Below, in pieces: positions 9,211-51,047 of a stretch of 51,801 bases of DNA (positions within the stretch are counted from its first letter, which is position 1; each line of letters opens with the position of its first letter). Position numbers and translations under genes: made by a program. The DNA lies in the IMG/VR virus record IMGVR_UViG_3300028388_002547, positions 1 to 51,801 of that record. The stretch is one strand, 5' to 3'. Source of the stretch: a virus. A model generated the notes under the pieces. That model saw nothing but the letters and a program-made list of their open reading frames with translations, searched no databases and was not told the origin of the DNA.

Positions 9211-9218
9211 TATTTATA
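9211..9218 (-). promoter_or_regulatory. T4-type late promoter for the leftward baseplate operon
   Basis: The plus strand reads TATTTATA, giving TATAAATA on the minus strand, 41 bases upstream of the gp48 ATG. The intergenic space is only 67 bases and also serves the divergent gp4 operon. For that side only the weaker AATAAATA at 9186-9193 on the plus strand is visible. Back-to-back late promoters would start both tail operons together. Confidence 0.75.
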
Positions 9219-23211: not shown

Positions 23212-24627
23212 CTATAATTTCACTCTAGGACGCACAATATTTTTTAGAGCGTCATAACAAAAGAAATTGACATCACTCTGATGATAAAATTTCTGTAGGG
23301 ATATCATTAACTTTTTGTCCTCGTCTGAGCCATTTTCATGTGATTCCTTTATCTCATCATACAATTCCTTTAGAGTTATATGAAAATCTTCCGGATATAA
23401 ACCATCATCATATTTCGAATCTGGATTAAATTTACTCAACTTTAATTTTCCACCATATCTATATTTACAATATTCTTGGAATGGTTTCAGTAAATTTGAA
23501 TTACCGATGTTATTACATTGATTCATTTTATATCGCAAGTATAACAACGCACCATTCTTACTTCTTTCTTCTTTCAATCTATCTATTGTATCATATTTTA
23601 TACAATGAATCAATGCATTCATTTCATTAAATCCTAGAGTATAGATGTGCTGTTCCAGATCACAATTTTTGTGAGGAAAATATGTCTCTAAATCTATATC
23701 TGTCGCATCTTGAAATGTTTTCAATAACTTGGCAATCTCTTCATCATCTCTAATATCTTCAACAACAAATGAAAACGCATCTTTGTTTACCCATTGCGAC
23801 GACTCACGGGCATATCTAAGACCATCATCCGGCCAAAAATCTTGAAGAGAATCTACATCGATCCATAGAGCATAATTTCCCTGATCATCCAATAAGACAT
23901 AATCTTTAAATTCTAGTTCTCCAGGATTATCAAAAGATGGCATTACTCTAGTAAAAACTCTACCCCACCTTTCTCTACTTCCATCCAGCGGCTCGTATGT
24001 ATTAGCCCTACGAACATCAAACTCTTCACCAAAACGATCAATAATATATTTTGATAATTTGATAGTTAAAATAACATCACTCAATGATTCATGATCCTGT
24101 TTCTCGTCTTGACCTAATATTCCAAACTTCTTACATAGCTTTTCTAATTTAAATGGTCTATCATTTCCATCTATTACTATTCTTCTAAACTCCTCATTCT
24201 TACTAGCAACATAATATGAGAGAAATCTCGTATCAGCATAATATAGACATCTTTTATTAAAGTATGGATACACACCATTTCTAATCATTGATGTTCTTAA
24301 AAAAGCTAAATCAAATTTACTCGTATTATGACCTATCATTGCAACTGGTTCTCTCTCACGCTCTATCCTAGCGTCTATCCAGTCTTTTATAGCTTGCATA
24401 GCCTCTTTCTCTGTCTGATATATAGATGTCTCTTGATGCTCTAGGACGTCTATCCTGTTAGCTAGGATAGCACCTGGCTGTGGTAGTTGTAACCTTGATA
24501 TCTTAATAGTACCAGTAAATTGATCTATAATTTCAAAATCTTCATCGACCAGCACAAAAGCAAAATTTAATATTTGACCGATTGGATTTATATCACTTGT
24601 CTCTAAATCCCAAAATATACTCTTCAT
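23212..24627 (-). CDS. Exonuclease I-like DEDDh 3'-5' exonuclease
   Basis: 471 aa, the size of bacterial ExoI (SbcB, about 475 aa). Exo I motif FWDLETSD (Asp7, Glu9), Exo II GHNTSKFDLAFLRTSMIRNG and Exo III HESLSDVILTIKL are in order, followed by a long region like the SH3/C-terminal part of ExoI with RWGRVFTRVMPSFDNPGELE. It should degrade single-stranded DNA from 3' ends. Full-length ExoI homologues are not part of the T4 core. It may process recombination ends or host DNA. Its ATG overlaps the upstream stop. Confidence 0.87.
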   Translation of the reverse strand: MKSIFWDLETSDINPIGQILNFAFVLVDEDFEIIDQFTGTIKISRLQLPQPGAILANRIDVLEHQETSIYQTEKEAMQAIKDWIDARIEREREPVAMIGHNTSKFDLAFLRTSMIRNGVYPYFNKRCLYYADTRFLSYYVASKNEEFRRIVIDGNDRPFKLEKLCKKFGILGQDEKQDHESLSDVILTIKLSKYIIDRFGEEFDVRRANTYEPLDGSRERWGRVFTRVMPSFDNPGELEFKDYVLLDDQGNYALWIDVDSLQDFWPDDGLRYARESSQWVNKDAFSFVVEDIRDDEEIAKLLKTFQDATDIDLETYFPHKNCDLEQHIYTLGFNEMNALIHCIKYDTIDRLKEERSKNGALLYLRYKMNQCNNIGNSNLLKPFQEYCKYRYGGKLKLSKFNPDSKYDDGLYPEDFHITLKELYDEIKESHENGSDEDKKLMISLQKFYHQSDVNFFCYDALKNIVRPRVKL

Positions 24628-25751
24628 TAATACACCTTCAATAAAATTGTATGCTTATTCAACCTACCATTTGGAGTATAATCAGTTGTTTTAATTTTCT
24701 CCAAAATTTTCCTACAACGAGTTTTGGCATTACTCATTATTTCTGGAATAACCTCATCAGGTTTCCGTAACCTTTTTTCCAAAGATGAATCATCTACATT
24801 TTGAAGTGTTGAGCCTTTTATCATAAAGCCAGTAGCACTACTGCAAACATATCTAGTTAGTTTTTTATTCTTCGTATTGTATGTCCATAATTCAGACTTT
24901 CCGATTATCTTTTCTGGATTAATACTTTTTAATGATAAATTATTATATTCTTTTAAGTAATGTAGTTTCTTTACCTGCTCTTTGGGTGTCTTAATTTTTC
25001 TTTTTCTTTTCTTTCTGGTTGGTTTAATTTTGGCAATCTCTTCTTTATATTTCTCCAAATCTCTAAAAATATCTGTATAAAATCCTATGAACTTTTTCAT
25101 GTGAGTTTTCTTATAACAAGACATTGATTCAAGCATTTCTTTATCACCGTTTAATGCTTCTTGGAAAGGTATGATCTGTCTATCAATATATTCAGATATC
25201 TTATTGAAGTGAATACTCTTTACACTATTTGTATGCAAAAAATTATAGAATGAAAAATCTGACTTAAATTTATTCTCAATAAAATTATCCAATTCTTCTT
25301 CAAGTGTTCCAATATATTCAATATATTGCTCATTGATATAATCTTGGATTGTTTTCTTTCTAACCTTAACGTCTTTCTTTTTTCTGTTATGTATTCTTTT
25401 ACCACGTTCTATTGCGGAATTTATGGCATCATATAAGTGATTTTGACCATTTTCATCCAACTCATATTCATCATTATTCATGCTAATTCTTGCGAGCCAA
25501 CCTGAATTTAATGGTATATATTTGTCTGGAGATTCTTTGAAGTATTTTATATCTGTACTATCATAATCACGATCTTCTTTCATATATTGGATTATATACT
25601 TGACACAATCCTTTCTCGATTTATTCGCATTATACCAGTTTAATAATCTCAATATTTCCATATCACCATTATCCAATGAAAATACTGGCTCAGTGATCTG
25701 CTTTTCCAAAATCTTTCTATCTTTAATTTTTCTCTTGGTCTTTCTATCCAT
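24627..25751 (-). CDS. Conserved basic protein of marine T4-like phages, unknown function
   Basis: 374 aa from the ATG at 25751; a GTG at 25766 is in frame. Very Lys-rich with several charged helices. The segment LHYLKEYNNLSLKSINPEKI, then IGKSELWTYNTKNKKLTRYV and IKGSTLQNVDDSSLEKRLRK, is a pattern I know from marine T4-like phages without an assigned role. It sits upstream of ExoI-like and RNase H genes, which suggests DNA metabolism. A degenerate copy of the repeated early-type promoter lies about 40 bases upstream. Confidence 0.75.
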   Translation of the reverse strand: MDRKTKRKIKDRKILEKQITEPVFSLDNGDMEILRLLNWYNANKSRKDCVKYIIQYMKEDRDYDSTDIKYFKESPDKYIPLNSGWLARISMNNDEYELDENGQNHLYDAINSAIERGKRIHNRKKKDVKVRKKTIQDYINEQYIEYIGTLEEELDNFIENKFKSDFSFYNFLHTNSVKSIHFNKISEYIDRQIIPFQEALNGDKEMLESMSCYKKTHMKKFIGFYTDIFRDLEKYKEEIAKIKPTRKKRKRKIKTPKEQVKKLHYLKEYNNLSLKSINPEKIIGKSELWTYNTKNKKLTRYVCSSATGFMIKGSTLQNVDDSSLEKRLRKPDEVIPEIMSNAKTRCRKILEKIKTTDYTPNGRLNKHTILLKVY

Positions 25752-25787: not shown

Positions 25788-25807
25788 TTCTATATAGGAT
25801 ATCGTCA
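25788..25807 (-). promoter_or_regulatory. Early-type promoter core, isolated copy
   Basis: The minus strand carries the exact 20-base core TGACGATATCCTATATAGAA found before the small genes at 46-51 kb. The upstream -35-like GTTT box is not well conserved here (GTCTAA instead). It points towards the conserved basic protein and the nuclease operon. Confidence 0.65.
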
Positions 25808-25878
25808 TATTCTGATTGGAACATTAGACTTTGGCTCATTATTATGACTAAAATATCTCAATAATTATAATATATTAC

Positions 25879-32811: not shown

Positions 32812-34845
32812 CTACTCACCACTGAATGATAATAAGTAATAATTATTATATATACTATTAGTCACCAATATATTACTACCACTAACCACAACAATACCAT
32901 ATATATTTTTGGGTATATTCAAATCAACATCTGATTGTGACCCAGCTTTGACTAATAATTCTTTGGTTGAAACCAAATTACCATTGTAATCGAGTACATC
33001 AAATACAACCGTTTCGTCATTACTTGATACATTAGCAACTCGGACATCATTAATCTGACCCAAATACGTATTATATTGCAATAATTGTACAATACTTTTT
33101 ACTACTGGCTCAAAGTCATTAGATACAACATAATCAACAGCACCATCACTTAGTCTATATTGAACTAATGTTGCATTAACACCGAATAAAGTTGAACTAA
33201 CATTGACATGACCACCACCACTTAAAACACTATCAACAACAAAGTGTCTGGTTTCATATTTTGATAATGATAGAACATTATCATATACAGCTACGCCATT
33301 CTCATCATATACGGCTACTCTCACATCATTATCAAAATTACTTGGATTATTAATTTCAACAATATTATATGAATCATCATCCACTGATACTATACTATGT
33401 ACTTCGTTTCTTGATGGTTCTCTAGCTGGTACAGTATAAGCAGTAATAAACTTCTCGCATGCAAAAACTGAATGTGCGTCAGGGGAGCAGTCATATAATA
33501 CCCTAGAAGCAGTCACATAAAATTTCTGTGGTTCATCACCTATTCTTGACAATGGTAAAAATACAGCAAAACCAACTGTATCATGATCAAGATATTCATG
33601 AGTTGGGAAATCATATCTACCACCATCCCTAACTCTAACCTGAAATGTATGTTTAAAGCTAGTGACACCATTTTTTGTTTCGTAAACTGATAGATTACCG
33701 AACAAATCTCGACCGTCTTTCTCTGAATCTGTAATTCTAACCCAGTTGGCGGCTCCACTACCACCTAACCTATAGGTATTCAATGTTACTACTTGTGAAG
33801 ATGTAACGGCATTTTTGAATGGTAAATAAAGTGCGAAATCAAAATCAGTATTATCACCAAAACCACTGCTTTCTGGGGAAACCCTGTATTGTGTAATTCC
33901 ACCAAACCACAAACCTTCTGCGTCGATTGATGATTCAATGCAAACAGTACCATAACTATCAACATCTAAACCATTATCATTAACAATAATATCTTTCTTT
34001 GTATTTGGTAATACATTGAATACAAAATCACTCTGAACATCACCCCACAAATCTGTGTAGGTATATCGAAATTCGAGATCAACCATACTCTTGTTGACGA
34101 CACTTGCTATATTGATGTGTTTCAAGAAACCATTGACACTAGAGCAAACTTTTGAATCTAGGTCTTTTGACGAACAAGATGTTCCATCGCCATCACAAAT
34201 TCCACATTGGTCAACTACAGCATCGCCATTGGGTACACCTGCACAATCAACAGGACATTTCTGTGAATCTCTACTAGCAGTTGCGGTTTTACCTCGTAAT
34301 GACCATACTAAATTACCACCATCGAAATCTACACTGAAAACATTAACAAATCTACCCTTATTATAAAATTCAGTTTGGTTTCTGTTGCTAGGACGTGGGG
34401 TAAATTTATTATCACTACCTACTGGTATTGATACATTGTAATCATTACCATTATAATAGCCAAAATAAGCGGTATATAATTTATCTGACTGTTGATGAAC
34501 ACACTCAAGAACAGGAGAAACCTTTGAACATTTTCTCTCATAGTATTCTTCACTACATCCAGCCTTTGGTTTAACTGACTTAAATTCTTTATTGAGTTCA
34601 AATCTGTATGAATCACCCACGTTTAAGTCATCATACTTATAAACTGATCCATCACAAAATGCAAATGTAACATGTGATAGATCTTTGCTAGATTCTACCA
34701 GCACACTATAGCCATCATCACTATAATCAACACTGAATGTTGCTTTACACGAATAACATAACGGTTCCACATTAACATCCGCACGGGCATCGCTATTGAA
34801 TAGTAATATAATGATAATTAACATTTTCAAAAATATAAGTTTCAT
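32812..34845 (-). CDS. Large secreted beta-rich protein with Cys cluster
   Basis: 677 aa from the ATG at 34845, chosen because GAGGAAATT precedes it and a signal peptide follows (KLIFLKMLIIIILLFNSDA, cleavage after ARA). The mature protein is beta-rich, Asp/Ser/Val-rich, with paired Cys residues. A short cluster near residue 195 reads CPVDCAGVPNGDAVVDQCGI with CDGDGTSC, a type seen in secreted proteins of marine bacteria. Several repeats of about 110 residues seem present. No phage counterpart is known to me. Host origin and an envelope function are plausible. It is transcribed alone. Confidence 0.75.
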   Translation of the reverse strand: MKLIFLKMLIIIILLFNSDARADVNVEPLCYSCKATFSVDYSDDGYSVLVESSKDLSHVTFAFCDGSVYKYDDLNVGDSYRFELNKEFKSVKPKAGCSEEYYERKCSKVSPVLECVHQQSDKLYTAYFGYYNGNDYNVSIPVGSDNKFTPRPSNRNQTEFYNKGRFVNVFSVDFDGGNLVWSLRGKTATASRDSQKCPVDCAGVPNGDAVVDQCGICDGDGTSCSSKDLDSKVCSSVNGFLKHINIASVVNKSMVDLEFRYTYTDLWGDVQSDFVFNVLPNTKKDIIVNDNGLDVDSYGTVCIESSIDAEGLWFGGITQYRVSPESSGFGDNTDFDFALYLPFKNAVTSSQVVTLNTYRLGGSGAANWVRITDSEKDGRDLFGNLSVYETKNGVTSFKHTFQVRVRDGGRYDFPTHEYLDHDTVGFAVFLPLSRIGDEPQKFYVTASRVLYDCSPDAHSVFACEKFITAYTVPAREPSRNEVHSIVSVDDDSYNIVEINNPSNFDNDVRVAVYDENGVAVYDNVLSLSKYETRHFVVDSVLSGGGHVNVSSTLFGVNATLVQYRLSDGAVDYVVSNDFEPVVKSIVQLLQYNTYLGQINDVRVANVSSNDETVVFDVLDYNGNLVSTKELLVKAGSQSDVDLNIPKNIYGIVVVSGSNILVTNSIYNNYYLLSFSGE

Positions 34846-34874: not shown

Positions 34875-34910
34875 TATATAGTATCGTCATTATAACACAT
34901 AAACTTTATA
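34875..34910 (-). promoter_or_regulatory. Early-type promoter, variant copy
   Basis: The minus strand reads GTTTAT, 17 bases, then CTATATA, with TGACGATA inside the spacer. It is a two-base-shorter variant of the right-end repeat core TGACGATATCCTATATAGAA, and it lies 30-65 bases before the secreted-protein ATG. Confidence 0.55.
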
Positions 34911-42497: not shown

Positions 42498-43340
42498 CTA
42501 TAGCAGGGCATTACTATCAATCTTATGATAATTAGATTCTGTTATATTCTTCGATCTATACAATGCTAGATCGAGCCAATACACTTTACCTTTGAGAAAG
42601 ATATTATATGATTTCATTGAATCCATACACGTATCCATAAAGTATTCTCGGAAAAACACTTTTTGACCCGTTTTCAATAAACCGAGCAAATTCTTTGTAT
42701 ATAATGACGGCTTACTGTAGTTAGGATAATGTCGATCAGATATTTTTAACTTTGTCATCACTTTACGTATTTTCAGATCCCCACTGTCGGTATTACTCGT
42801 GTAATCCTCGATTTTATCATAGAATGACCAATTATCCGTTTCCTTCTTTTTTAGTCTGTATATGGATCTGTGAAATAGTTCGGCTATGTGGTAATAGTGT
42901 AATAGCTCTGGATGGTTTACTCTGCTCGGCTCTTGGAAATACTCTCTGATTAACTCCTCGTCGCCATTTAGTATTGCTAAGAATAGTTCCATTTGGGTTG
43001 AGTCCGGTAGTTCTTCGAATTTTTCTGGGAGAACTATATCTCGGCCTATTGCTTGATACCGAAAAAAATCTCGGCAACTAAAATATTGCTTCATATACAT
43101 TGGAAAGATTTTTCCGTGGATTGTATTCTCTATTACATCATCGGTAGGAAAGACAAATATACTTAGCATTATTAAATCATGGATAAACTCTTGGTACTCG
43201 CTTATTGATATTTTGATGGCTCTATGAAATTCTCTTATTATTAGTTTATTGCGTATATCGTCTGGATTGTCTGTATGTCGTTTACCTAGAAAACTTTCTG
43301 GTTTATATAAAATAGCATATAATCTTGGAAAATACTTCAT
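42498..43340 (-). CDS. Unknown paralogous family, member A (280 aa)
   Basis: Start set at ATG 43340 after AAAGGTG; an in-frame GTG lies at 43346. It begins MKYFPRLYAILY and holds FHRAIKISISEYQEFIHDLI and LHYYHIAELFHRSIYRLKK, features shared with the genes at 43849 and 44559. The C-terminal part has GQKVFFREYFMDTCMDSM. Soluble, helical, basic. I know no family for it. It is preceded by an early-type promoter variant. Confidence 0.75.
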   Translation of the reverse strand: MKYFPRLYAILYKPESFLGKRHTDNPDDIRNKLIIREFHRAIKISISEYQEFIHDLIMLSIFVFPTDDVIENTIHGKIFPMYMKQYFSCRDFFRYQAIGRDIVLPEKFEELPDSTQMELFLAILNGDEELIREYFQEPSRVNHPELLHYYHIAELFHRSIYRLKKKETDNWSFYDKIEDYTSNTDSGDLKIRKVMTKLKISDRHYPNYSKPSLYTKNLLGLLKTGQKVFFREYFMDTCMDSMKSYNIFLKGKVYWLDLALYRSKNITESNYHKIDSNALL

Positions 43341-43375
43341 AATCACCTTTTATGGAAAATACCGTTTTTAACTCG

Positions 43376-43390
43376 TATATGGATATCGTC
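43376..43390 (-). promoter_or_regulatory. Early-type promoter core, variant copy before family member A
   Basis: The minus strand reads GACGATATCCATATA, compared with GACGATATCCTATATA in the right-end repeats. AAAAAGA precedes it and GTAAAAAGAG occupies the -35 side. It lies 36 bases upstream of the ATG at 43340. Confidence 0.55.
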
Positions 43391-43558
43391 TCTTTTTACT
43401 TGATACTTGATATTCTGGCTCTGATTGTTTTTTTCTTGGAAGTTCTGGGACAGCTTTTTTGCTTGGAAAATTTTTTGGAGAGAAAATACCGCAACCAACC
43501 TAGTTATACCCTTAGAGTCTCTCGTTTTACGATCAATGGAAATACTGTTTTTTCTCTT

Positions 43559-43852
43559 TTACTGGAAACAAAGATGTTGGCTCCACCATGGAAAAAATGG
43601 ACGCTCGCGGAACATATTATTATACACCTTATAAACCGTGCACTCTGTTCTATACTTCTTCCTTTCATCTAATAGTGCTTTCCTTTTGTCCTCATCTGTA
43701 ATTACTGACTCCAAGCTGCCAAACTCTTTCCCTATATCTTTTTATATACATTCACAAAATTCTCTAGGTATTTGCTATGCAGGGCATCTATTAAGTTCTG
43801 TATTGTTACTGATGATCTGGTATAGGATGGATAATATGTTTTTGTATCTCAT
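43559..43852 (-). pseudogene. Decayed fourth member of the paralogous family
   Basis: ATG at 43852 overlaps the stop of the upstream member (ATGA), exactly like the intact member at 44562. The frame begins MRYKNILSILYQIISNNTEL, which fits the family start M(K/R)Yxx-LY, but stops after 25 codons. Coding-like sequence continues in two other frames: IDALHSKYLENFVNVYKK, then EFGSLESVITDEDKRKALLD and NMFRERPFFPWWSQH, ending at TAA 43559. Two frameshifts are needed, one beside an A5 run. Either a degraded copy with internal loss, or sequencing errors in a gene of about 97 codons. Confidence 0.6.
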
Positions 43853-44562
43853 AGACTTCTTCTCCTGAAGTCAATTATCTTGTAAAGGTAGCCATCTGAT
43901 ATCTGAATACAAAGGTTTATTATGGTTTGTATATTGTCATTCTTGGCTATGGCTTCATATACTGTTTCCAGGCAGGGATATAGTTTGGTAAAACTTATAT
44001 TTGGATCGGGTATTGCTACGGATGAGAAAAAGCAATCGGCTATATGGAGTATGGCCGCTTCTCTGATTACCATTGGACGTACTATCTCAGGCTCGCTTGC
44101 TATGTTTTGCGTGATACTATATAAGCTTGATTTGCCTGCTAGGCCTTTTGCGAGATTGTTAGCATCATTAGGATCATCTGGATTGACTTTGGCTATTCCG
44201 CATGATCGCATACCCATATTTGTTAGCAAGTCAATCACCGAGTACCGTGCACGGAGTCTCTTGTCTCTCACCAACTCCATCATATCGGAAGACAAGGCTG
44301 ATAAGTCTTCAGGCTGCCCTCTTAGTATTGTTAAAAAGTCTTTGTTGTTATTGAGTATTTGAGTTACGACCATGTAATCGTGTATAAACTCTTGTATCTC
44401 GTTGTTATGATAAGCAACTTGGAGATAGTACCCTGCTAACTGATAGAATGAATCATTAATCTTTATGGCTCTATCTTTAAATAATGTATTAGGGAGATTC
44501 TTCCATCTCCCAGCATTACCGGGAAAATCAACTGCCTGATATAAGTATGGTATATATTTCAT
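43849..44562 (-). CDS. Unknown paralogous family, member B (237 aa)
   Basis: Begins MKYIPYLYQAVDFPGNAGRW. Shared motifs: LFKDRAIKINDSF, EIQEFIHDYMVV near residue 60, and AAILHIADCFFSS near residue 170. Compared with member A, the RAIKI...EFIHD block matches best. No signal peptide or catalytic motif. ATG overlaps the stop of member C by 4 bases, so C, B and the decayed copy form one transcript. Confidence 0.75.
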   Translation of the reverse strand: MKYIPYLYQAVDFPGNAGRWKNLPNTLFKDRAIKINDSFYQLAGYYLQVAYHNNEIQEFIHDYMVVTQILNNNKDFLTILRGQPEDLSALSSDMMELVRDKRLRARYSVIDLLTNMGMRSCGIAKVNPDDPNDANNLAKGLAGKSSLYSITQNIASEPEIVRPMVIREAAILHIADCFFSSVAIPDPNISFTKLYPCLETVYEAIAKNDNIQTIINLCIQISDGYLYKIIDFRRRSL

Positions 44563-45359
44563 GGATGATTCACCCTAAGGAAGTTATTGTCTTTAGTAAA
44601 CCAATCGACAAAGGTTCTGAATTTATAATGCTTTTGAGCAAACAAATCCTGGAATGTTATTACTTTCTCTTTATGCGGAATACCCTTTTCATAGTATAAC
44701 CTTTCTCTGGTTTCTATGAGTTCCCTCATGTCTTGACTTGGGTAATTAAAGGATAGTTGATTCTGACTTGGCTCTAATAGTTCATACTCTTCTGGTATTG
44801 TACCACGATTGAATAAACGGCTAAAACAATCTGAGTAAAAGACTTGGGCAACATGGAAGTAATTTAGAATTTTGTTGTCGCTATGCTTGTCATCAAGGAA
44901 ATGAGTAACACTTGTTTGATAATGAGTATATGCAGATATATCTAATAGAAACTCCCTGCCGAGTAACATATCAATCAACAGTGATACATGATCTTGGAGT
45001 AAAGTTGTGATCGATATATTATCTACTCTCAAGCCCGTCAATTGAGAGTAATCCCTAATCTTGTTTCTAATCCGATGTTCAATATAGTCAATACAAGTAT
45101 TCCGTATATATGCTTCGGCAAGTGTATAGTCTCTTGGACATATATTTGGTTTGAAATTTCTTTGTTTGTCAATAGTCATCACTATTGTTTCTTTGATGTG
45201 GTATTCTGGTTTAATGAATATTTCATCTATTAGATTGGCCATAGCCCAATCATTGATCTCCCCCTGCTTTACTGCATCCTTAAAAAGATATATGGACTTG
45301 TTCTCGTCATCTGCGAGCTTCCATTCAAAAAAATTGACTAAGTATGGCAAATATCTCAT
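44559..45359 (-). CDS. Unknown paralogous family, member C (266 aa)
   Basis: Begins MRYLPYLVNFFEWKLADDEN, with LFKDAVKQGEINDWAMANLI in the position of the second block and LNYFHVAQVFYSDCFSRLF in the third. More diverged than A and B. C-terminal ALF-like block QDLFAQKHYKFRTFVDWFTK. AAAGGAG precedes the ATG. The LPD29-like gene lies immediately upstream. Confidence 0.75.
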   Translation of the reverse strand: MRYLPYLVNFFEWKLADDENKSIYLFKDAVKQGEINDWAMANLIDEIFIKPEYHIKETIVMTIDKQRNFKPNICPRDYTLAEAYIRNTCIDYIEHRIRNKIRDYSQLTGLRVDNISITTLLQDHVSLLIDMLLGREFLLDISAYTHYQTSVTHFLDDKHSDNKILNYFHVAQVFYSDCFSRLFNRGTIPEEYELLEPSQNQLSFNYPSQDMRELIETRERLYYEKGIPHKEKVITFQDLFAQKHYKFRTFVDWFTKDNNFLRVNHP

Positions 45360-45821: not shown

Positions 45822-45832
45822 ATTGTTTCTCC

Positions 45833-46144
45833 TTATATTGCTATTGATGCAACTTCATCTTTGTTATGCTTTGGTGTAAACTCGCCATACCTAGCTCTGC
45901 CAATTCGATCACCATTTTCATAGTTAGTTACGATGATGCCCTTGCTGGTTTCGTTTTTTATAGCATCGAAAACTCTTTCCACATCATGATCTTTATGAAA
46001 CAATCGTACTTCCACAACAGACTTTCTTCCTACCTTGTACGTGTACGCATCAAATCTATCATTATAATGCCCATAACCTAGCTTATATGCTACTATATTT
46101 TCAATTCTATAATCTTTCTTAGTGGTTAAAAATCGTCCGCTCAT
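45833..46144 (-). CDS. Small hypothetical early protein, 103 aa
   Basis: First gene behind early promoter copy B, with leader CAATATAAGGAG. Basic, alpha/beta: DYRIENIVAYKLGYGHYNDR, VVEVRLFHKDHDVERVFDAI and GIIVTNYENGDRIGRARYGE. Not recognised. Early expression and small size fit a host-takeover protein. Confidence 0.7.
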   Translation of the reverse strand: MSGRFLTTKKDYRIENIVAYKLGYGHYNDRFDAYTYKVGRKSVVEVRLFHKDHDVERVFDAIKNETSKGIIVTNYENGDRIGRARYGEFTPKHNKDEVASIAI

Positions 46145-46170
46145 ATTGTTTCTCCTTATATTGTTTTACG

Positions 46171-46207
46171 TTCTATATAGGATATCGTCACTTTTTTGGG
46201 TAAACTT
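46171..46207 (-). promoter_or_regulatory. Early promoter repeat, copy B
   Basis: Minus strand GTTTAC, A-rich spacer, then TGACGATATCCTATATAGAA, followed by leader CAATATAAGGAG. GTTTAC equals the -35 box of T4 early promoters. It feeds the gene at 45833 and probably those to 42.5 kb. Confidence 0.75.
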
Positions 46208-46260
46208 GAGTATTTGGATCATATACATCCATATTTCTCAAATAAATACACCAATGTTTA

Positions 46261-46281
46261 CAGGTACTTGCTAAGTACCTG
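46261..46281. terminator. Palindrome after a small gene, possible transcript end
   Basis: Perfect 9-bp arms CAGGTACTT/AAGTACCTG with loop GCT, 8 bases past the stop of the 58-aa gene on the minus strand. No T tract follows, so it could be an RNA-stability or processing hairpin instead of a terminator. Decayed versions occur near 47100 and 50090. Confidence 0.45.
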
Positions 46282-46288
46282 ATATTAT

Positions 46289-46465
46289 TCATCCCAAGAA
46301 TACTTTCTGTTTCTCTTCCTTTTTCTTCTCAAACCCAAAAAAGGTTTTTTGCTTTTTGTCTGATTTTAGACTTTTTACTGCCCTATTAAATAAAACATCC
46401 CACCTGATCTCATGATTATAGAACAATTCAAATTCTTCATCTGGTATATGATGTACTGTGCCCAT
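46289..46465 (-). CDS. Small hypothetical protein, 58 aa
   Basis: ATG 46465, TGA 46289, GGAG upstream. Product MGTVHHIPDEEFELFYNHEI, then RWDVLFNRAVKSLKSDKK and a Lys/Glu-rich tail. Not recognised. Third cistron of the transcript starting at copy C. Confidence 0.65.
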   Translation of the reverse strand: MGTVHHIPDEEFELFYNHEIRWDVLFNRAVKSLKSDKKQKTFFGFEKKKEEKQKVFLG

Positions 46466-46466
46466 A

Positions 46467-46598
46467 TTATTTTCTCCAATTCTTTGATTTTTTTAATAAC
46501 TCCCTAATGAATACCTTAACCACCTTATAGTTAGGATAATATACTACCTTGCTTTTTGTCGCTTCATGTAATATCTGTATAGGGTTTTTATTTTTCAT
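46467..46598 (-). CDS. Small hypothetical basic protein, 43 aa
   Basis: ATG 46598 overlaps the upstream stop (ATGA); TAA at 46467. Product MKNKNPIQILHEATKSKVVY, then YPNYKVVKVFIRELLKKSKN and WRK. Strongly basic and helical. Not recognised. GGGAG precedes the ATG. Confidence 0.6.
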   Translation of the reverse strand: MKNKNPIQILHEATKSKVVYYPNYKVVKVFIRELLKKSKNWRK

Positions 46599-46807
46599 AA
46601 TGACTCCCTAGCTTCCCTAATTTCCGCATTAATTTTAGTAAATAAATGCGAATCTATCTCCCTAACCCAACATTTAGCCATATTACCATAATTCTCATCA
46701 TCAAGTAAACTGTACCATCTGTCCAAAGCCTCAATGCTACCACGGACGCTTTTTGCTCTTTTTTTATTATTAAACTTAAATATATCAAATGGTCTTTTTG
46801 GTCTCAT
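46595..46807 (-). CDS. Small hypothetical protein, duplicate of 49462 gene
   Basis: 70 aa. Begins MRPKRPFDIFKFNNKKRAKS, then EALDRWYSLLDDENYGNMAK and CWVREIDSHLFTKINAEIRE. About three quarters of positions equal the 68-aa protein at 49462. The basic start and acidic-aromatic middle suggest binding to a partner. The duplicates stand behind different promoter copies. Function unknown. Confidence 0.72.
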   Translation of the reverse strand: MRPKRPFDIFKFNNKKRAKSVRGSIEALDRWYSLLDDENYGNMAKCWVREIDSHLFTKINAEIREARESL

Positions 46808-46816
46808 ATATCACTC

Positions 46817-46984
46817 CTAGAAAAAACAACTGTGTTTACTAATCAATTTTCTGTTCTTCTCTTCTAGCTTTTTGATTTCACGTTTAAGGTAATTTATTTC
46901 CTCCTTTGAATCTGCTTTAAGTTTATTAAGTTCTTTTCTTAGCTTGTCGTTTTCTGATTTCAATTGGTGTAATGTGAATTCCAT
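46817..46984 (-). CDS. Small coiled-coil protein, 55 aa
   Basis: ATG 46984, TAG 46817, AAGGAG in the leader behind promoter copy C. Product MEFTLHQLKSENDKLRKELN, then a leucine/isoleucine heptad helix (LKREIKKLEEKNRKLI) ending SKHSCFF. It is a parallel coiled-coil zipper and probably dimerises, perhaps with a host regulator. First gene of its transcript. Confidence 0.7.
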   Translation of the reverse strand: MEFTLHQLKSENDKLRKELNKLKADSKEEINYLKREIKKLEEKNRKLISKHSCFF

Positions 46985-47010
46985 TGTTTATCTCCTTATA
47001 TTGTTTTACG

Positions 47011-47047
47011 TTCTATATAGGATATCGTCATTTTTTTCGGCAAACTT
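47011..47047 (-). promoter_or_regulatory. Early promoter repeat, copy C
   Basis: Minus strand GTTTGC, A-rich spacer, core TGACGATATCCTATATAGAA, leader CAATATAAGGAG. Upstream on the plus strand a 10-bp inverted repeat TACTGGTGTC/GACACCAGTA lies at 47060-47096. Confidence 0.75.
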
Positions 47048-47114
47048 TAGGATTTGGACTACTGGTGTCCATAAAAATGTGGAAAAGACACCAGTAAAAA
47101 CAGGTATTTACTAA

Positions 47115-47315
47115 CTATCTAAAATCATTAATATATTCGATATTATAACTTTTATTCAAATATCGCTTTAGTGCATCGGAATTTAACTCATTATCATGAA
47201 TATAACATACTAACCTACTCCCTGCCCCGTGCCAAGCAAAGGAAACCGAATCATCTGATATATTGAAAACTTTTGCTACTTCTCTTTTTAATTTTTTTGG
47301 TGGTCTATAACCCAT
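47115..47315 (-). CDS. Short LPD29-like protein, 66 aa
   Basis: Begins MGYRPPKKLKREVAKVFNIS, then SVSFAWHGAGSRLVCYIHDN and LNSDALKRYLNKSYNIEYIN. The order of helix, strands and helix matches the first half of the LPD29-like protein at 45360. Half-size paralogue or domain fragment. AAGGTG precedes the ATG. Confidence 0.62.
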   Translation of the reverse strand: MGYRPPKKLKREVAKVFNISDDSVSFAWHGAGSRLVCYIHDNELNSDALKRYLNKSYNIEYINDFR

Positions 47316-47349
47316 ATTACACCTTATTCATTATAATATTAGTAATACC

Positions 47350-47532
47350 TTATACAATCGCTAGGAGCTTCGTGGCACGCTGTCTTTCTCGCTCGGTGTC
47401 TCTGCTCTCGGTCGTACCTAAAACACGTTGGCGAGCTTCCTCCGCTGTCCTTTCTAGTCTTTTACTTACATTGTAGGACTGTCTCTCTGTATCATGCTTT
47501 AATATGCTGTATGCTAGTATGCTTATCGTCAT
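47350..47532 (-). CDS. Small hypothetical protein, 60 aa
   Basis: ATG 47532 overlaps the upstream stop (TAATG). Short hydrophobic start MTISILAYSILKHD, then a helical Arg/Glu-rich body with ERTAEEARQRVLGTTESRDT. Not recognised. Coupling supports it; the unusual Arg-rich composition makes it less certain. Confidence 0.55.
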   Translation of the reverse strand: MTISILAYSILKHDTERQSYNVSKRLERTAEEARQRVLGTTESRDTERERQRATKLLAIV

Positions 47533-47870
47533 TATTCTTCCTCCTGCACCACGTGTTTAGCTAGTTCTGTTTTAATGATATAATCGAAAAACGGATAAAC
47601 GTACTCCAATTTTTCTGTCAAGCATACACGCTCGCCATATAATGATTCTAAAACCTCAAGCCATCTACAAGCATTATCAAGGTATTTCGGAGCATCATCC
47701 CTTGAATGATATACCTGGCTTACTAGACAATCAACAAACAATGCCAGATGAAACTCCACATTATTCAAAATCTCTTCCTTTGACTCACTGTATTCTTTTA
47801 GGTTTTGTTGATTATCTTTATCTCGCTTCAATGGCTCTATTAGATCTAACAATCCGCTTGCTTTTGACAT
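47532..47870 (-). CDS. Hypothetical helical protein, 112 aa
   Basis: First gene behind promoter copy D, with GAGG upstream of ATG. Helical: KEEILNNVEFHLALFVDCLV, YLDNACRWLEVLESLYGERV, and a C-terminal YVYPFFDYIIKTELAKHVV. Not recognised. Confidence 0.7.
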   Translation of the reverse strand: MSKASGLLDLIEPLKRDKDNQQNLKEYSESKEEILNNVEFHLALFVDCLVSQVYHSRDDAPKYLDNACRWLEVLESLYGERVCLTEKLEYVYPFFDYIIKTELAKHVVQEEE

Positions 47871-47918
47871 ATTTACCTCAATTATTCTTATTATTGTTTA
47901 TAACATATTATTTTTACG

Positions 47919-47955
47919 TTCTATATAGGATATCGTCACTTTTTTCACTAAACTT
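47919..47955 (-). promoter_or_regulatory. Early promoter repeat, copy D
   Basis: Minus strand GTTTAG, A-rich spacer, core TGACGATATCCTATATAGAA. Upstream AAAAAAGC tracts match copy E for about 50 further bases. The leader differs from other copies and lacks AATATAAGGAG. Confidence 0.75.
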
Positions 47956-48033
47956 TAGCTTTTTTCGCTTTTATTTCCATATTTTCCGAAAAGATTTTTC
48001 CGTTAATATTCAATATATTAGTCCCAGAAGGGG

Positions 48034-48078
48034 ATTCCGCTGGCGTTTAGAATGGATTAGAACGTATGCCAGCGGAAT
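48034..48078. repeat. GC-rich inverted repeat
   Basis: 11-bp arms ATTCCGCTGGC/GCCAGCGGAAT separated by 23 bases, 18 bases past the stop of the gene at 48096. Unlike the AT-rich surroundings. No T tract on either strand, so it may be a protein site or RNA-end structure instead of a classic terminator. Confidence 0.7.
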
Positions 48079-48095
48079 AGAACAATATAAGAACA

Positions 48096-48437
48096 CTAGG
48101 AGAGTCTTGGCCCCGATTTATCGAGTCTATTTTGTACGACCCTAACCCTATCTACAAGTTCCTTAAATGTTGGAGCTTCATAGTAATATATATCTTTTCC
48201 AACTGATGGATCATATACTATTAAAGATCCTCTACAATCAGCATCTACTGCCCCGAGCTTTCGCATTTGTTTATCAAGCTCTTTTAAATGTTCCCTTGCT
48301 TGCGCCACTACTTCTTTGCGTTCTATTAGTGTTCTGCTTGCTTTTTCCAGGGCTATATATTTCTGTGCTTGATATTGGGCATCGACAAAAGCTCTTGCGG
48401 CCGCCCTTTCAATTCTTTCAAATCTTTGTTGTATCAT
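48096..48437 (-). CDS. Hypothetical helical protein, 113 aa
   Basis: Residues 1-60 form an Arg/Glu/Ala-rich coiled-coil-like helix (FERIERAAARAFVDAQYQAQ), then an alpha/beta tail with VYDPSVGKDIYYYEAPTFKE. Not recognised. Second gene of the transcript from copy E, next to the 79-aa gene with a 3-base gap. Confidence 0.68.
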   Translation of the reverse strand: MIQQRFERIERAAARAFVDAQYQAQKYIALEKASRTLIERKEVVAQAREHLKELDKQMRKLGAVDADCRGSLIVYDPSVGKDIYYYEAPTFKELVDRVRVVQNRLDKSGPRLS

Positions 48438-48440
48438 ATT

Positions 48441-48680
48441 CTACCTATAATTAACCTCTAATTCTACATCCAGATCACTAACATCAACTACTAATGAATC
48501 CTTAATGAATCTTGAATATGCTTGTAATTGTTCTCTTTTACTGTCTGCCACTAAGTTACAATACCAAATTCCGTCATTGCCAGCAAAGGCTACGATAAAC
48601 TTATCCCTAACTTCTTCTTTCGATATTACTAAAAGACCTTGTACGTTTAATTCTACTATTTTATCAGCTACTATTTTCAT
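48441..48680 (-). CDS. Hypothetical protein, 79 aa
   Basis: ATG 48680, preferred over the in-frame upstream reading (to 48737) because AAGGAG precedes it and because the longer frame would cover promoter copy E. Starts MKIVADKIVELNVQGLLVIS, then FIVAFAGNDGIWYCNLVADS. Alpha/beta; not recognised. First gene of its transcript. Confidence 0.72.
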   Translation of the reverse strand: MKIVADKIVELNVQGLLVISKEEVRDKFIVAFAGNDGIWYCNLVADSKREQLQAYSRFIKDSLVVDVSDLDVELEVNYR

Positions 48681-48707
48681 GGTTTGACTCCTTATATTGT
48701 TTTTACG

Positions 48708-48744
48708 TTCTATATAGGATATCGTCATAATTTTCACTAAACTT
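48708..48744 (-). promoter_or_regulatory. Early promoter repeat, copy E
   Basis: Minus strand GTTTAG, A-rich spacer, core TGACGATATCCTATATAGAA, leader CAATATAAGGAG. The 130 bases upstream (48745-48876) are rich in A tracts on the minus strand, including two copies of AAAAAATCAAGAAAAA, which could act as an UP element. Confidence 0.75.
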
Positions 48745-48876
48745 TAGCTTTTTTCGCTTTTATTTCCATATTTTCCGAAAAATCACTCATTTTTTCCGTT
48801 TTTTTCTATTTTTTGACCTAAATTACCGTTTTTTCTTGATTTTTTAGCATTTTTCTTGATTTTTTCCGAAAAATCA

Positions 48877-49116
48877 CTAAAATATCACGCTTATTCCTCT
48901 ATTCTGAAACTCTGTGGATATAAGCCTAAGGTCGAAAACTGTTAGCCCCCTCAATGCCCCCCTGCGCCTCAATGACTTAACATGAAACACTTGTGCTTTG
49001 AGTTCTTCAAGTGATAGCTTACTCAGTTCACCAGCCACGTTCTCTCTACCCATGACATACTTGAACCTATGGAAATTACTCTTGTCTACTGCTATACTCT
49101 TATATGTTTGTTTCAT
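48877..49116 (-). CDS. Hypothetical protein, 79 aa
   Basis: Begins MKQTYKSIAVDKSNFHRFKY, then VAGELSKLSLEELKAQVFHV and a basic block SLRRRGALRGLTVFDL. Helical and basic. Overlaps the upstream gene by ATGA. Not recognised. Confidence 0.65.
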   Translation of the reverse strand: MKQTYKSIAVDKSNFHRFKYVMGRENVAGELSKLSLEELKAQVFHVKSLRRRGALRGLTVFDLRLISTEFQNRGISVIF

Positions 49117-49412
49117 CTTATAATCAACCTCAATGCGGAATTAATATTATTATCATTAGCATACTCATAGATTCCTTTACATAACTTATTAAGTAAAGCC
49201 GCAGGGATTCTATTGAATATTGACCATCTAGCACGTTCTTCGCTATGACCACGAGCCACACACAAATCCAAATACTCTCTAAAAGTCTGTGGCGGCTCTA
49301 TCACCAAATTAAGATCCCATGATAAATCCCTGAATGTTGATATAACTAAACTTTCAATCTCTCTGAAGTGTTCTTCTGTTATAGTCAATCTGTCATCATA
49401 TTTTACGCTCAT
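49113..49412 (-). CDS. Hypothetical protein, 99 aa
   Basis: Leader AATATAAGGAGACACC before the ATG, same form as behind the promoter repeats, but no promoter copy lies directly upstream. Helical: TEEHFREIESLVISTFRDLS, YLDLCVARGHSEERARWSIF and CKGIYEYANDNNINSALRLI. Not recognised. Confidence 0.68.
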   Translation of the reverse strand: MSVKYDDRLTITEEHFREIESLVISTFRDLSWDLNLVIEPPQTFREYLDLCVARGHSEERARWSIFNRIPAALLNKLCKGIYEYANDNNINSALRLIIR

Positions 49413-49461
49413 GGTGTCTCCTTATATTGTTAATCATACTACTAAATCAACGTTAATTATA

Positions 49462-49668
49462 TTATTTCTTTGCTTCCCTAATCTCTGAATTAATTTTAGC
49501 AAATAGATGTGACTCTATTTCCCTTATCCAGCATTTAGCCATATTACCATAATTCTCATCATCGAGTAAATCATACCAGCGATCTAATGCCTCCAGACTA
49601 CCCTTCACATCCTTTTCTCTTTTTTTATTATTGAATTTAAATGTATCAAATGTTTTTTCTGGTCTCAT
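49462..49668 (-). CDS. Small hypothetical protein, duplicate of 46595 gene
   Basis: 68 aa. Begins MRPEKTFDTFKFNNKKREKD, with EALDRWYDLLDDENYGNMAK and CWIREIESHLFAKINSEIRE. Near copy of the protein at 46595. Leader TATAAGGATA before the ATG. Retention of both copies argues that they are used. Confidence 0.72.
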   Translation of the reverse strand: MRPEKTFDTFKFNNKKREKDVKGSLEALDRWYDLLDDENYGNMAKCWIREIESHLFAKINSEIREAKK

Positions 49669-49684
49669 AATGTTTATCCTTATA

Positions 49685-49960
49685 TTAATACCAAATACCC
49701 AAATCTCTTAGTTCTCTATGAACATCTTCCCAGCCGGCTGGTTGAAGCTGAAACAGTGTTTCGCTATTCCAGTTCAATTCATAACCATGTTTTTCGCAAG
49801 CTATATCAAAATCATTATAGCTAGCCGAAGTATGGAAATACTCTCTTAGATAATCTACGGCATCCCGTTTGGAATCAAATGGTTTGCTTCCACTTAACTC
49901 CGAAACTATGTTGTTTAATGTACCTATGTTTAATTGTCTGAATGTATTAATCTTATTCAT
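49685..49960 (-). CDS. Hypothetical protein, 91 aa
   Basis: First gene behind promoter copy F, leader CAATATAAGGAG. Starts MNKINTFRQLNIGTLNNIVS, then KRDAVDYLREYFHTSASYND and QPAGWEDVHRELRDLGIWY. Not recognised. Alpha-helical with a Trp-rich end. Confidence 0.7.
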   Translation of the reverse strand: MNKINTFRQLNIGTLNNIVSELSGSKPFDSKRDAVDYLREYFHTSASYNDFDIACEKHGYELNWNSETLFQLQPAGWEDVHRELRDLGIWY

Positions 49961-49986
49961 GGTAGTCTCCTTATATTGTTTATACG

Positions 49987-50023
49987 TTCTATATAGGATA
50001 TCGTCATTTTTTTCGGCAAACTT
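49987..50023 (-). promoter_or_regulatory. Early promoter repeat, copy F
   Basis: Minus strand GTTTGC, A-rich spacer, core TGACGATATCCTATATAGAA. Upstream flank is related to copy C over about 100 bases, including the palindrome CCATAAAATTATGG (50043-50056). Confidence 0.75.
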
Positions 50024-50158
50024 GAGGATTTGGACTATTAATGTCCATAAAATTATGGAAAAGAAGTCAATAAATTCAACTATTTGCTAAGTACCCTAAA
50101 TCATTATTCTATATAATACACCACCTATATCTGTATATTGTTTCATATAATGGATCTC

Positions 50159-50299
50159 TCATCTCTCTTTTAGTCTCTCAAAGACTTCTCTATGCTCTTC
50201 CATTTTCTCAGCTAACTTTTCGGAACACTCGTCTATATATCGGAGCCGCTCTGCTTCGTTCTCTGGATATTTGTTTGGAGTTTTGTTTGGACTTTCCAC
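50159..50299 (-). CDS. Small charged helical protein, 46 aa, GTG start
   Basis: GTG at 50299 with GAGGTGAG upstream; TGA at 50159. Product begins VESPNKTPNKYPENEAERLR and continues as a charged helix (DECSEKLAEKMEEHREVFER). Not recognised. Start codon and helix make it plausible; no other frame in this stretch is better. Confidence 0.55.
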   Translation of the reverse strand: MESPNKTPNKYPENEAERLRYIDECSEKLAEKMEEHREVFERLKER

Positions 50300-50587
50300 G
50301 ATGTTCTCACCTCAAAAAATTAGTCGAAAATATTGGACAGGCTAAGCCTGCTGGTGGCCGATTAAAGAACCAAATGGCCACCCTGATTAAAGAACCAAAT
50401 GGCCACCCTGCTCTATACCCTGCTATAGTCTCTCCCTCTTTATTATATGCTATATACTAACCATTGTATTGCTACATATACCATATAGGCTATTACTAAC
50501 CAATATACTATTATACCTGTTGATACTACCATTGACTACTATTGACTACTATTGATTGGATTATTAATATTCTCTCTATTGCTTTAT
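50300..50587. other. Intergenic region with tandem duplications
   Basis: No convincing gene. A 25-base unit starting GATTAAAGAACC and ending GGCCACCCT is repeated in tandem at 50360-50384 and 50385-50409. Near 50530-50555 the 10-base unit TTGACTACTA is repeated twice with a third partial copy. On the minus strand a short hydrophobic reading begins MVVSTGIIVYWLVIAYMVYV; it has no ribosome-binding site. Confidence 0.7.
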
Positions 50588-50821
50588 TCATTTTCTTTCT
50601 TTGTATATTCTTTCTTGTTCTACTTGTTCATGATACTTACATTGGAAGTCTGGTGGACTGTCTATGCTTATTACTTCGTTGATGCGGCCGCACCCACACT
50701 CATCCAACTCTGGACTTAGTAGGTCGCTCAGTTTCTCGCATGGATATACTGTCCATGTATATAGATGTGGATTGTCTTTTGGAACTTGCCAATAATTGCA
50801 GTTTCTACATGTCTTGGACAT
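50588..50821 (-). CDS. Cys-rich putative zinc-binding protein, 77 aa
   Basis: Begins MSKTCRNCNYWQVPKDNPHL, then VYPCEKLSDLLS, CGCGRINEVISIDSPPDFQC and KYHEQVEQ. The layout C(R)xCxxW, PCxKLS, (S)xxDxxCKYxE is shared with the protein at 51048. Four conserved Cys could bind one zinc. Overlaps the upstream 51-aa gene by 17 bases. No ribosome-binding site. Confidence 0.7.
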   Translation of the reverse strand: MSKTCRNCNYWQVPKDNPHLYTWTVYPCEKLSDLLSPELDECGCGRINEVISIDSPPDFQCKYHEQVEQERIYKERK

Positions 50822-50960
50822 CTTTTACCTCATGAATCTCTATCTTGTAATCATCATCATATTGTTCACTAATCTCTTGGAAATTGTCTGGTGTTGCTGG
50901 ACATACTTGTACTACATTACCACCTAAATAATATCTCTCTTGTACTACTATTACTTTCAT
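50805..50960 (-). CDS. Small hypothetical protein, 51 aa
   Basis: ATG 50960 with AAAGGGA upstream, TAG 50805. Product MKVIVVQERYYLGGNVVQVC, then PATPDNFQEISEQYDDDYKI and a short acidic end. First gene behind promoter copy G. Not recognised. Confidence 0.68.
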   Translation of the reverse strand: MKVIVVQERYYLGGNVVQVCPATPDNFQEISEQYDDDYKIEIHEVKDVQDM

Positions 50961-50988
50961 TGAATTCCCTTTGATTAGTGATTTTGCG

Positions 50989-51023
50989 TTCTATAGGATA
51001 TCGTCACTTTTTTGGGTAAACTT
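50989..51023 (-). promoter_or_regulatory. Early promoter repeat, copy G
   Basis: Minus strand GTTTAC, A-rich spacer, core TGACGATATCCTATAGAA, two bases shorter than the other copies inside the TATATA run. AAAGCTAAA precedes it, as in copies D and E. Confidence 0.72.
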
Positions 51024-51047
51024 TAGCTTTCGGCTCTCAAATAATGA

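Follow-up and report, generated by a model that had tools for sequence, protein, structure and literature searches.

Repeated cassettes before small genes in a virus record with T4-type genes resemble sigma28 promoters

Near one end of IMG/VR virus record IMGVR_UViG_3300028388_002547, a stretch of 51,801 bases that is called the window here, a short cassette is repeated before groups of small genes, and the locus raises the question of what reads it. Early transcription in phages normally starts from strong promoters of the sigma70 type, and a preliminary description of the sequence had compared the upstream boxes of the cassettes with T4 early promoters and had also suggested a dedicated recogniser, either a host or a phage factor. 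In our best reading, which is drawn from the sequence, the cassettes would be sigma28-class promoters with the -35 element TMAAGTTT, a 12-bp spacer and the -10 element GACGATAT, and they are probably early promoters read by the flagellar sigma factor of the host (FliA/SigD).

The 20-bp core of the cassette, TGACGATATCCTATATAGAA, has exact minus-strand copies at 46171, 47011, 47919, 48708 and 49987, where shuffled sequences are expected to hold none, and a further copy lacking two bases (TA) lies at 50989-51006 (-); both the positions and the deletion agree with what had been described. All six copies reported there are present, but the window scan raised the total. An unreported exact copy of the core (25788-25807, minus strand), 20 kb away, precedes a replication-gene operon, and an unreported diverged copy (34881-34908, minus strand) reads TAAAGTTT-N12-GACGATAC, followed by TATATA. 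Each of the eight accepted copies (sites A to H, Table 1) is on the minus strand, a short way upstream of a gene and pointing in the same direction as it, which supports the earlier view that they are promoter-like rather than scattered repeats.

When the eight copies were aligned and grouped in six lineages by their differing flanks, the columns conserved over all lineages were TMAAGTTT, TGACGATA and then TATA, and the spacer and flanks varied. The distance from TMAAGTTT to GACGATAT is 12 bp in every site. TMAAGTTT is fully matched in seven of the eight sites and degraded in site G (TAATGTTC, 6/8), and the -10 element, GACGATAT or GACGATAC with a CGATA core, is present in 8/8. The GTTTAC, GTTTAG and GTTTGC boxes noticed earlier do exist, but conservation applies to the unit TMAAGTTT, and the bases 3' of GTTT vary.

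A blind scan of both strands of the window with the E. coli FliA consensus, TAAAGTTT-N11/12-GCCGATAA (maximum score 16), gave five matches at 14/16, all of them sites, and four at 13/16, two of them sites. Seven of the eight sites are thus among the nine best matches in the window, and the eighth scores 12/16. A score of at least 14/16 had a frequency of 3.5e-5 in 200,000 random 60-mers (<0.001 after allowing for the roughly ten promoter classes tried), and the scores of the sites for sigma70, T4 early, T4 middle, sigmaB, sigma32, sigma54, sigmaE and other promoters are near the window background. Yu and co-workers (2006) reportedly described an n11/12 spacing rule for sigma28. Like bacterial class 3 flagellar promoters (E. 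coli FliA, B. subtilis SigD), the cassettes have a TMAAGTTT -35, a CGATA -10 core and a fixed short spacer; they differ in the spacer of 12 instead of the usual 11, in the added conserved CCTATATAGAA on the 3' side and in their multiple copies before small phage genes. Among the E. coli FliA promoters mapped by chromatin immunoprecipitation sequencing, the fliC -10, GACGATAA, is nearly identical to the cassette -10, and the -35 elements include TAAAG and TCAAG (PMC4183435). A matrix made from this list gives 17.1 for the four best sites in the window, compared with 16.8 for fliC.

Similar arrays are present in other viral contigs. In IMG/VR, the exact pattern TAAAGTTT-N11-GCCGATAA was found in at least 120 stretches, compared with 31 for the reversed pattern, and 25 of 137 consensus sites (18%) lie inside long open reading frames (ORFs), compared with 21 of 31 reversed-pattern sites (68%; P = 2e-7). 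Over 63 whole IMG/VR records, chosen by one exact match each (one by the N12 form) and including a few near-duplicates, the sum was 176 consensus matches against 6 for the reversed-pattern control, with up to 11 sites per record. For example, 11 sites lie within 5 kb of record L236, nine are found in L250 (where they precede rIIA and rIIB, among others), six in L226 and four each in L210 and L224. Record G051, a T4-like contig of 129.5 kb with gp32 and terminase, has nine sigma28-type sites on one strand only, each 38-48 nt before an ATG. Also, TTGACA stands inside the spacer of most sites in G051 and L241 (the latter being, with L251, among the array contigs), which suggests overlapping sigma70/sigma28 promoters. 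Spacers in the array contigs are N11 in 70 cases, N12 in 11, the second commonest, and of other lengths in three; the N11 count is inflated by the record selection and the N12 count is not. In L236, L250, L226, L224 and G051, the arrays resemble the window in having 4-11 sites, mostly on one strand and each a short way upstream of a small gene that has a ribosome-binding site, whereas they differ in using mainly N11 and GCCGATAA/T and, in most sites of G051 and L241, the embedded TTGACA. The genomes concerned are unrelated or only distantly related to the window phage, whose gp32 is 33% identical to that of G051.

The array is absent from nine reference T4-like phages including T4, from the relatives of the window found by gp32 and phrog_11903, and from Pseudoalteromonas phage KB12-38, which is weakly similar to L236. 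The exact core was found in no other IMG/VR contig, its 16-mer form gave 10 unrelated matches attributable to chance, and megablast of the cassette region against phages gave no match. In records L022 and L032, one similar site lies next to gp32 but within an inverted repeat, and it was set aside. Our literature search, with subscription journals mostly outside it, returned no account of phage promoter arrays driven by sigma28, so that priority is uncertain.

The N12 form of the window sites is also used by bacteria. The exact pattern TAAAGTTT-N12-GACGATAT was found at no fewer than 118 sites (at least 118) in GTDB genomes, and gene context was taken from the first 80. Among these 80 listed sites, 34 are intergenic with a gene no more than 250 nt downstream, and Pfam identified five flagellins, one FliD and one MCP among the genes that follow. 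A larger set of 49 sites adds FlgN-, FlgB- and FlgF/G-like sequences, judged by eye; at least 8 of the 49 precede flagellar genes (P = 6e-6 against an assumed base rate of 2%), and control genes from the same loci also include flagellar genes, as expected of flagellar loci. As a separate observation, the exact sigma28 pattern precedes related small proteins at nine Lachnospiraceae loci (L047, L060, L083, L088, L089, L105, L114, L136 and L140). These proteins start with MSLSGIGNN... or MSTISTIND... and received no flagellar name from Pfam, and they are perhaps unrecognised flagellar proteins.

Taken with the conservation of the cassettes, the parallels suggest that some phages use the flagellar sigma factor of the host to express genes. 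For the window, we infer promoter activity, start sites, timing and the host origin of the sigma factor along the following lines. Host RNA polymerase carrying FliA/SigD would most likely read the cassettes once the DNA enters, and RNA would be expected to start within the conserved CCTATATAG, just 3' of the -10. At least one replication-gene operon would be transcribed from the cassettes, as would the groups of small phage genes, which are probably early, a label that comes from the type of gene. Several copies stand behind terminator-like stem-loops, and some spread by duplication of cassette and operon. Reading by host FliA/SigD would make early expression dependent on a FliA-active cell.

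Several points weigh against this picture. Shuffled single windows reach 12-19 on the E. coli FliA matrix, so that the case rests on conservation and on the parallels. The spacer is 12, compared with the commonest sigma28 spacer of 11; the -10 carries A where most have C; and recognition by sigma28 would not by itself require CCTATATAGAA, on the downstream side, to be conserved so strongly. The exact N12 GACGATAT form shows no enrichment in IMG/VR outside this phage. In addition, the host FliA is itself presumed, and since the window and most of the viral records are incomplete, a sigma of the phage's own could be encoded outside them.

The broader proposal falls slightly short of an even chance in our judgement: a widespread and undescribed group of phages, T4-likes included, may have recruited the host flagellar sigma as their main early-gene sigma, infection thereby being set up to succeed in cells that are motile and have active FliA, and overlapping sigma70/sigma28 promoters may allow both in some of them. 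If phages use sigma28, infection would be gated directly by the motility state, cells could become resistant by losing FliA, independently of the receptor, and phage-host conflict would come to target FlgM and FliA. Sigma28-type arrays could also serve as a sequence signature to predict uncultured phages that infect flagellated hosts.

Among the alternatives, the one that survives best, though we consider it unlikely, is that a factor encoded by the phage reads these sites, either a sigma28-like sigma of the phage or a Mot-like activator binding TGACGATATCC, which would make them delayed-early or middle promoters. Replication genes are middle genes in T4, and site G precedes replication genes; its core is kept while its -35 is degraded, and conservation of the -10 and the block 3' of it goes further than the sigma28 consensus. 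Against such a factor, a search of 21 records (the window plus 20 array-bearing ones, including the 129.5-kb G051) found no FliA-family gene, and no sigma70 region 2 above the cut-off was found in 16 array-bearing records, a set to which G051 does not belong, the sole weak match being in G025. Both blocks also fit the cellular flagellar sigma, and bacterial flagellar genes use the same sequence. T4 middle promoters carry a MotA box 12 +/- 1 bp before TATAAT (PMC2988021), and a consensus scan of the window found no such features at the cassette sites. The dedicated recogniser proposed earlier holds in that the TGACGATATCC block points to something other than ordinary sigma70; between host and phage, which had been left undecided, the balance would lean to a host factor.

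It is improbable that the cassettes are ordinary sigma70 promoters, with a T4-style GTTTAC -35, a TGAC -35 and AT-rich -10, or an alphaproteobacterial -10 CTATAT. GTTTAC does resemble the T4 early -35 box, site H has GTTTAT-N17-CTATAT, RTGACG-N17-TAAAAC is possible, and the TTGACA within the G051 sigma28 spacers means that dual promoters may exist. However, the hexamer scores are near the window background, no normally spaced hexamer pair is conserved over the copies, and T4 itself is without such an array. T4 early promoters are of the sigma70 type with UP, -35, TGn and -10 elements (PMC2988021); the cassettes share with them the arrangement in arrays before small early genes and the A-rich stretches nearby, but those elements are absent or at background here. 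The sites do not show the T4 early combination of sigma70 -35, TGn, -10 and 16-18 bp spacing, there is no conserved -10 at that distance, and the earlier identification of the -35 as a T4 early box has to be abandoned in favour of TMAAGTTT, as the T4 early and sigma70 scores are near background. The alphaproteobacterial sigma70 form was dropped, with a spacing of 19 in most copies and scores mostly at background. An SP6-like phage-polymerase promoter was dropped as well, its GTGAC-to-TATAG distance appearing to be off by 7.

That the core is a repeat, recombination site or operator duplicated with the small genes, and no promoter element, is very improbable: some cassettes were duplicated with flanks and genes and the core holds short palindromes, but 8/8 accepted copies are gene-oriented and upstream of genes, both promoter blocks are kept between lineages with unrelated flanks, and other viral contigs show the same anatomy.

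Table 1 Cassette sites and associated stem-loops in the window.
Feature	Position	Strand	Elements	Context
Site A	46171..46209	-	-35 TCAAGTTT (46202-46209), N12, -10 GACGATAT (46182-46189), then CCTATATAGAA	precedes 45833-46144
Site B	47011..47049	-	TAAAGTTT-N12-GACGATAT + CCTATATAGAA	precedes genes 46817-46984, 46595-46807
Site C	47919..47957	-	TAAAGTTT-N12-GACGATAT + CCTATATAGAA	precedes gene 47532-47870
Site D	48708..48746	-	TAAAGTTT-N12-GACGATAT + CCTATATAGAA	precedes genes 48441-48680, 48096-48437
Site E	49987..50025	-	TCAAGTTT-N12-GACGATAT + CCTATATAGAA	precedes genes 49685-49960, 49462-49668
Site F	50989..51025	-	TAAAGTTT-N12-GACGATAT, TA deleted 3' of -10 (CCTATAGAA)	precedes genes 50805-50960, 50588-50821
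Site G	25788..25826	-	TAATGTTC-N12-GACGATAT + CCTATATAGAA	precedes 24627-25751 (phrog_11903) and exonuclease/RNase H operon
Site H	34881..34908	-	TAAAGTTT-N12-GACGATAC, downstream part diverged	precedes 32812-34845 (677-codon secreted-looking protein)
Doubtful ninth site, uncounted	43383..43410	-	weak match TCAAGTAT-N12-GACGATAT	in decayed ORF, ~45 nt before gene 42498-43340
Terminator-like stem-loop	46261..46281	-	CAGGTACTTAGCAAGTACCTG	upstream of site A
Stem-loop	47059..47097	-	12-bp stem; fold z-score -3.5	upstream of site B
Stem-loop	48034..48078 (approximate)	-	region fold z-score -2.8	upstream of site C

Around the putative sigma28-type promoters, other modules are found. The leader CAATATAAGGAG lies 3' of four of the six copies, and it also precedes two other genes without the core (45828-45841 and 49417-49430), which indicates a separate ribosome-binding module that is reused alone. 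Stem-loops at sites A, B and C have fold z-scores of -2.3 to -3.5, and the same scan gave no significant stem-loop at sites D, E and F. Spread by duplication, as proposed in the preliminary description, is borne out by two pairs with related flanks: in B/E (47049/50025), 74 of the 97 bases aligned within the 100 bp upstream are identical, and C/D (47957/48746) share 71 of 87 aligned flank bases. However, the B/E duplication takes in a gene downstream, whose two copies (46595-46807 and 49462-49668) agree at 164 of 207 bases, and the unit that moved is therefore more than an intergenic cassette. Arbiol and co-workers (2010), cited in PMC4177764, are said to have described PeSL as mobile regulatory cassettes of T4-type phages, with a promoter and a stem-loop in intergenic spaces. 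The present cassettes are similar in placing a promoter and stem-loop between small genes and in spreading by duplication, but they differ in having a sigma28-type instead of a sigma70-type promoter, in copies without a stem-loop and in one duplication with a gene. Rfam gave no match to the cassettes, and the small genes tested received no function from Pfam or PHROGs.

The window carries T4-type genes for a gp32-like single-stranded DNA-binding protein, a gp61-type primase, a helicase loader and RNase H, as well as T4-type baseplate genes (gp48/gp5/gp6-like). Its relatives are distant: gp6 is 38% identical to Pelagibacter and Methylophilales phages, gp32 is 46-58% identical to IMG/VR contigs and cyanophages, and the closest phages, likewise far removed, are marine, alphaproteobacterial and cyanobacterial T4-likes. 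T4 late-type sites, TATAAATA, precede baseplate and tail genes, for example at 9218 (-) and 9682 (+), and inspection of the window showed none at the cassette sites; the cassettes thus form a class of their own. There is no avoidance of GATATC (EcoRV) in the window (36 compared with about 32 expected). Adjoining the tail tube genes, an 836-amino-acid gene (12125-14635, plus strand) has a C-terminal VgrG3-like domain (Pfam PF21277, E 7e-43), and its product is possibly a cell-wall enzyme on the tail. On the minus strand, three adjoining genes at 42498-45359 resemble tandem paralogues, starting with MKYFPRLY, MKYIPYLY and MRYLPYLV, and decayed sequence separates two of them at about 43350-43840. 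Finally, the gap between genes 50588-50821 and 50159-50299 contains short direct repeats at 50340-50425 and about 50520-50560, with CAGGGTGGCCATTTGGTTCTTTAAT and AATAGTAGTC each present twice.

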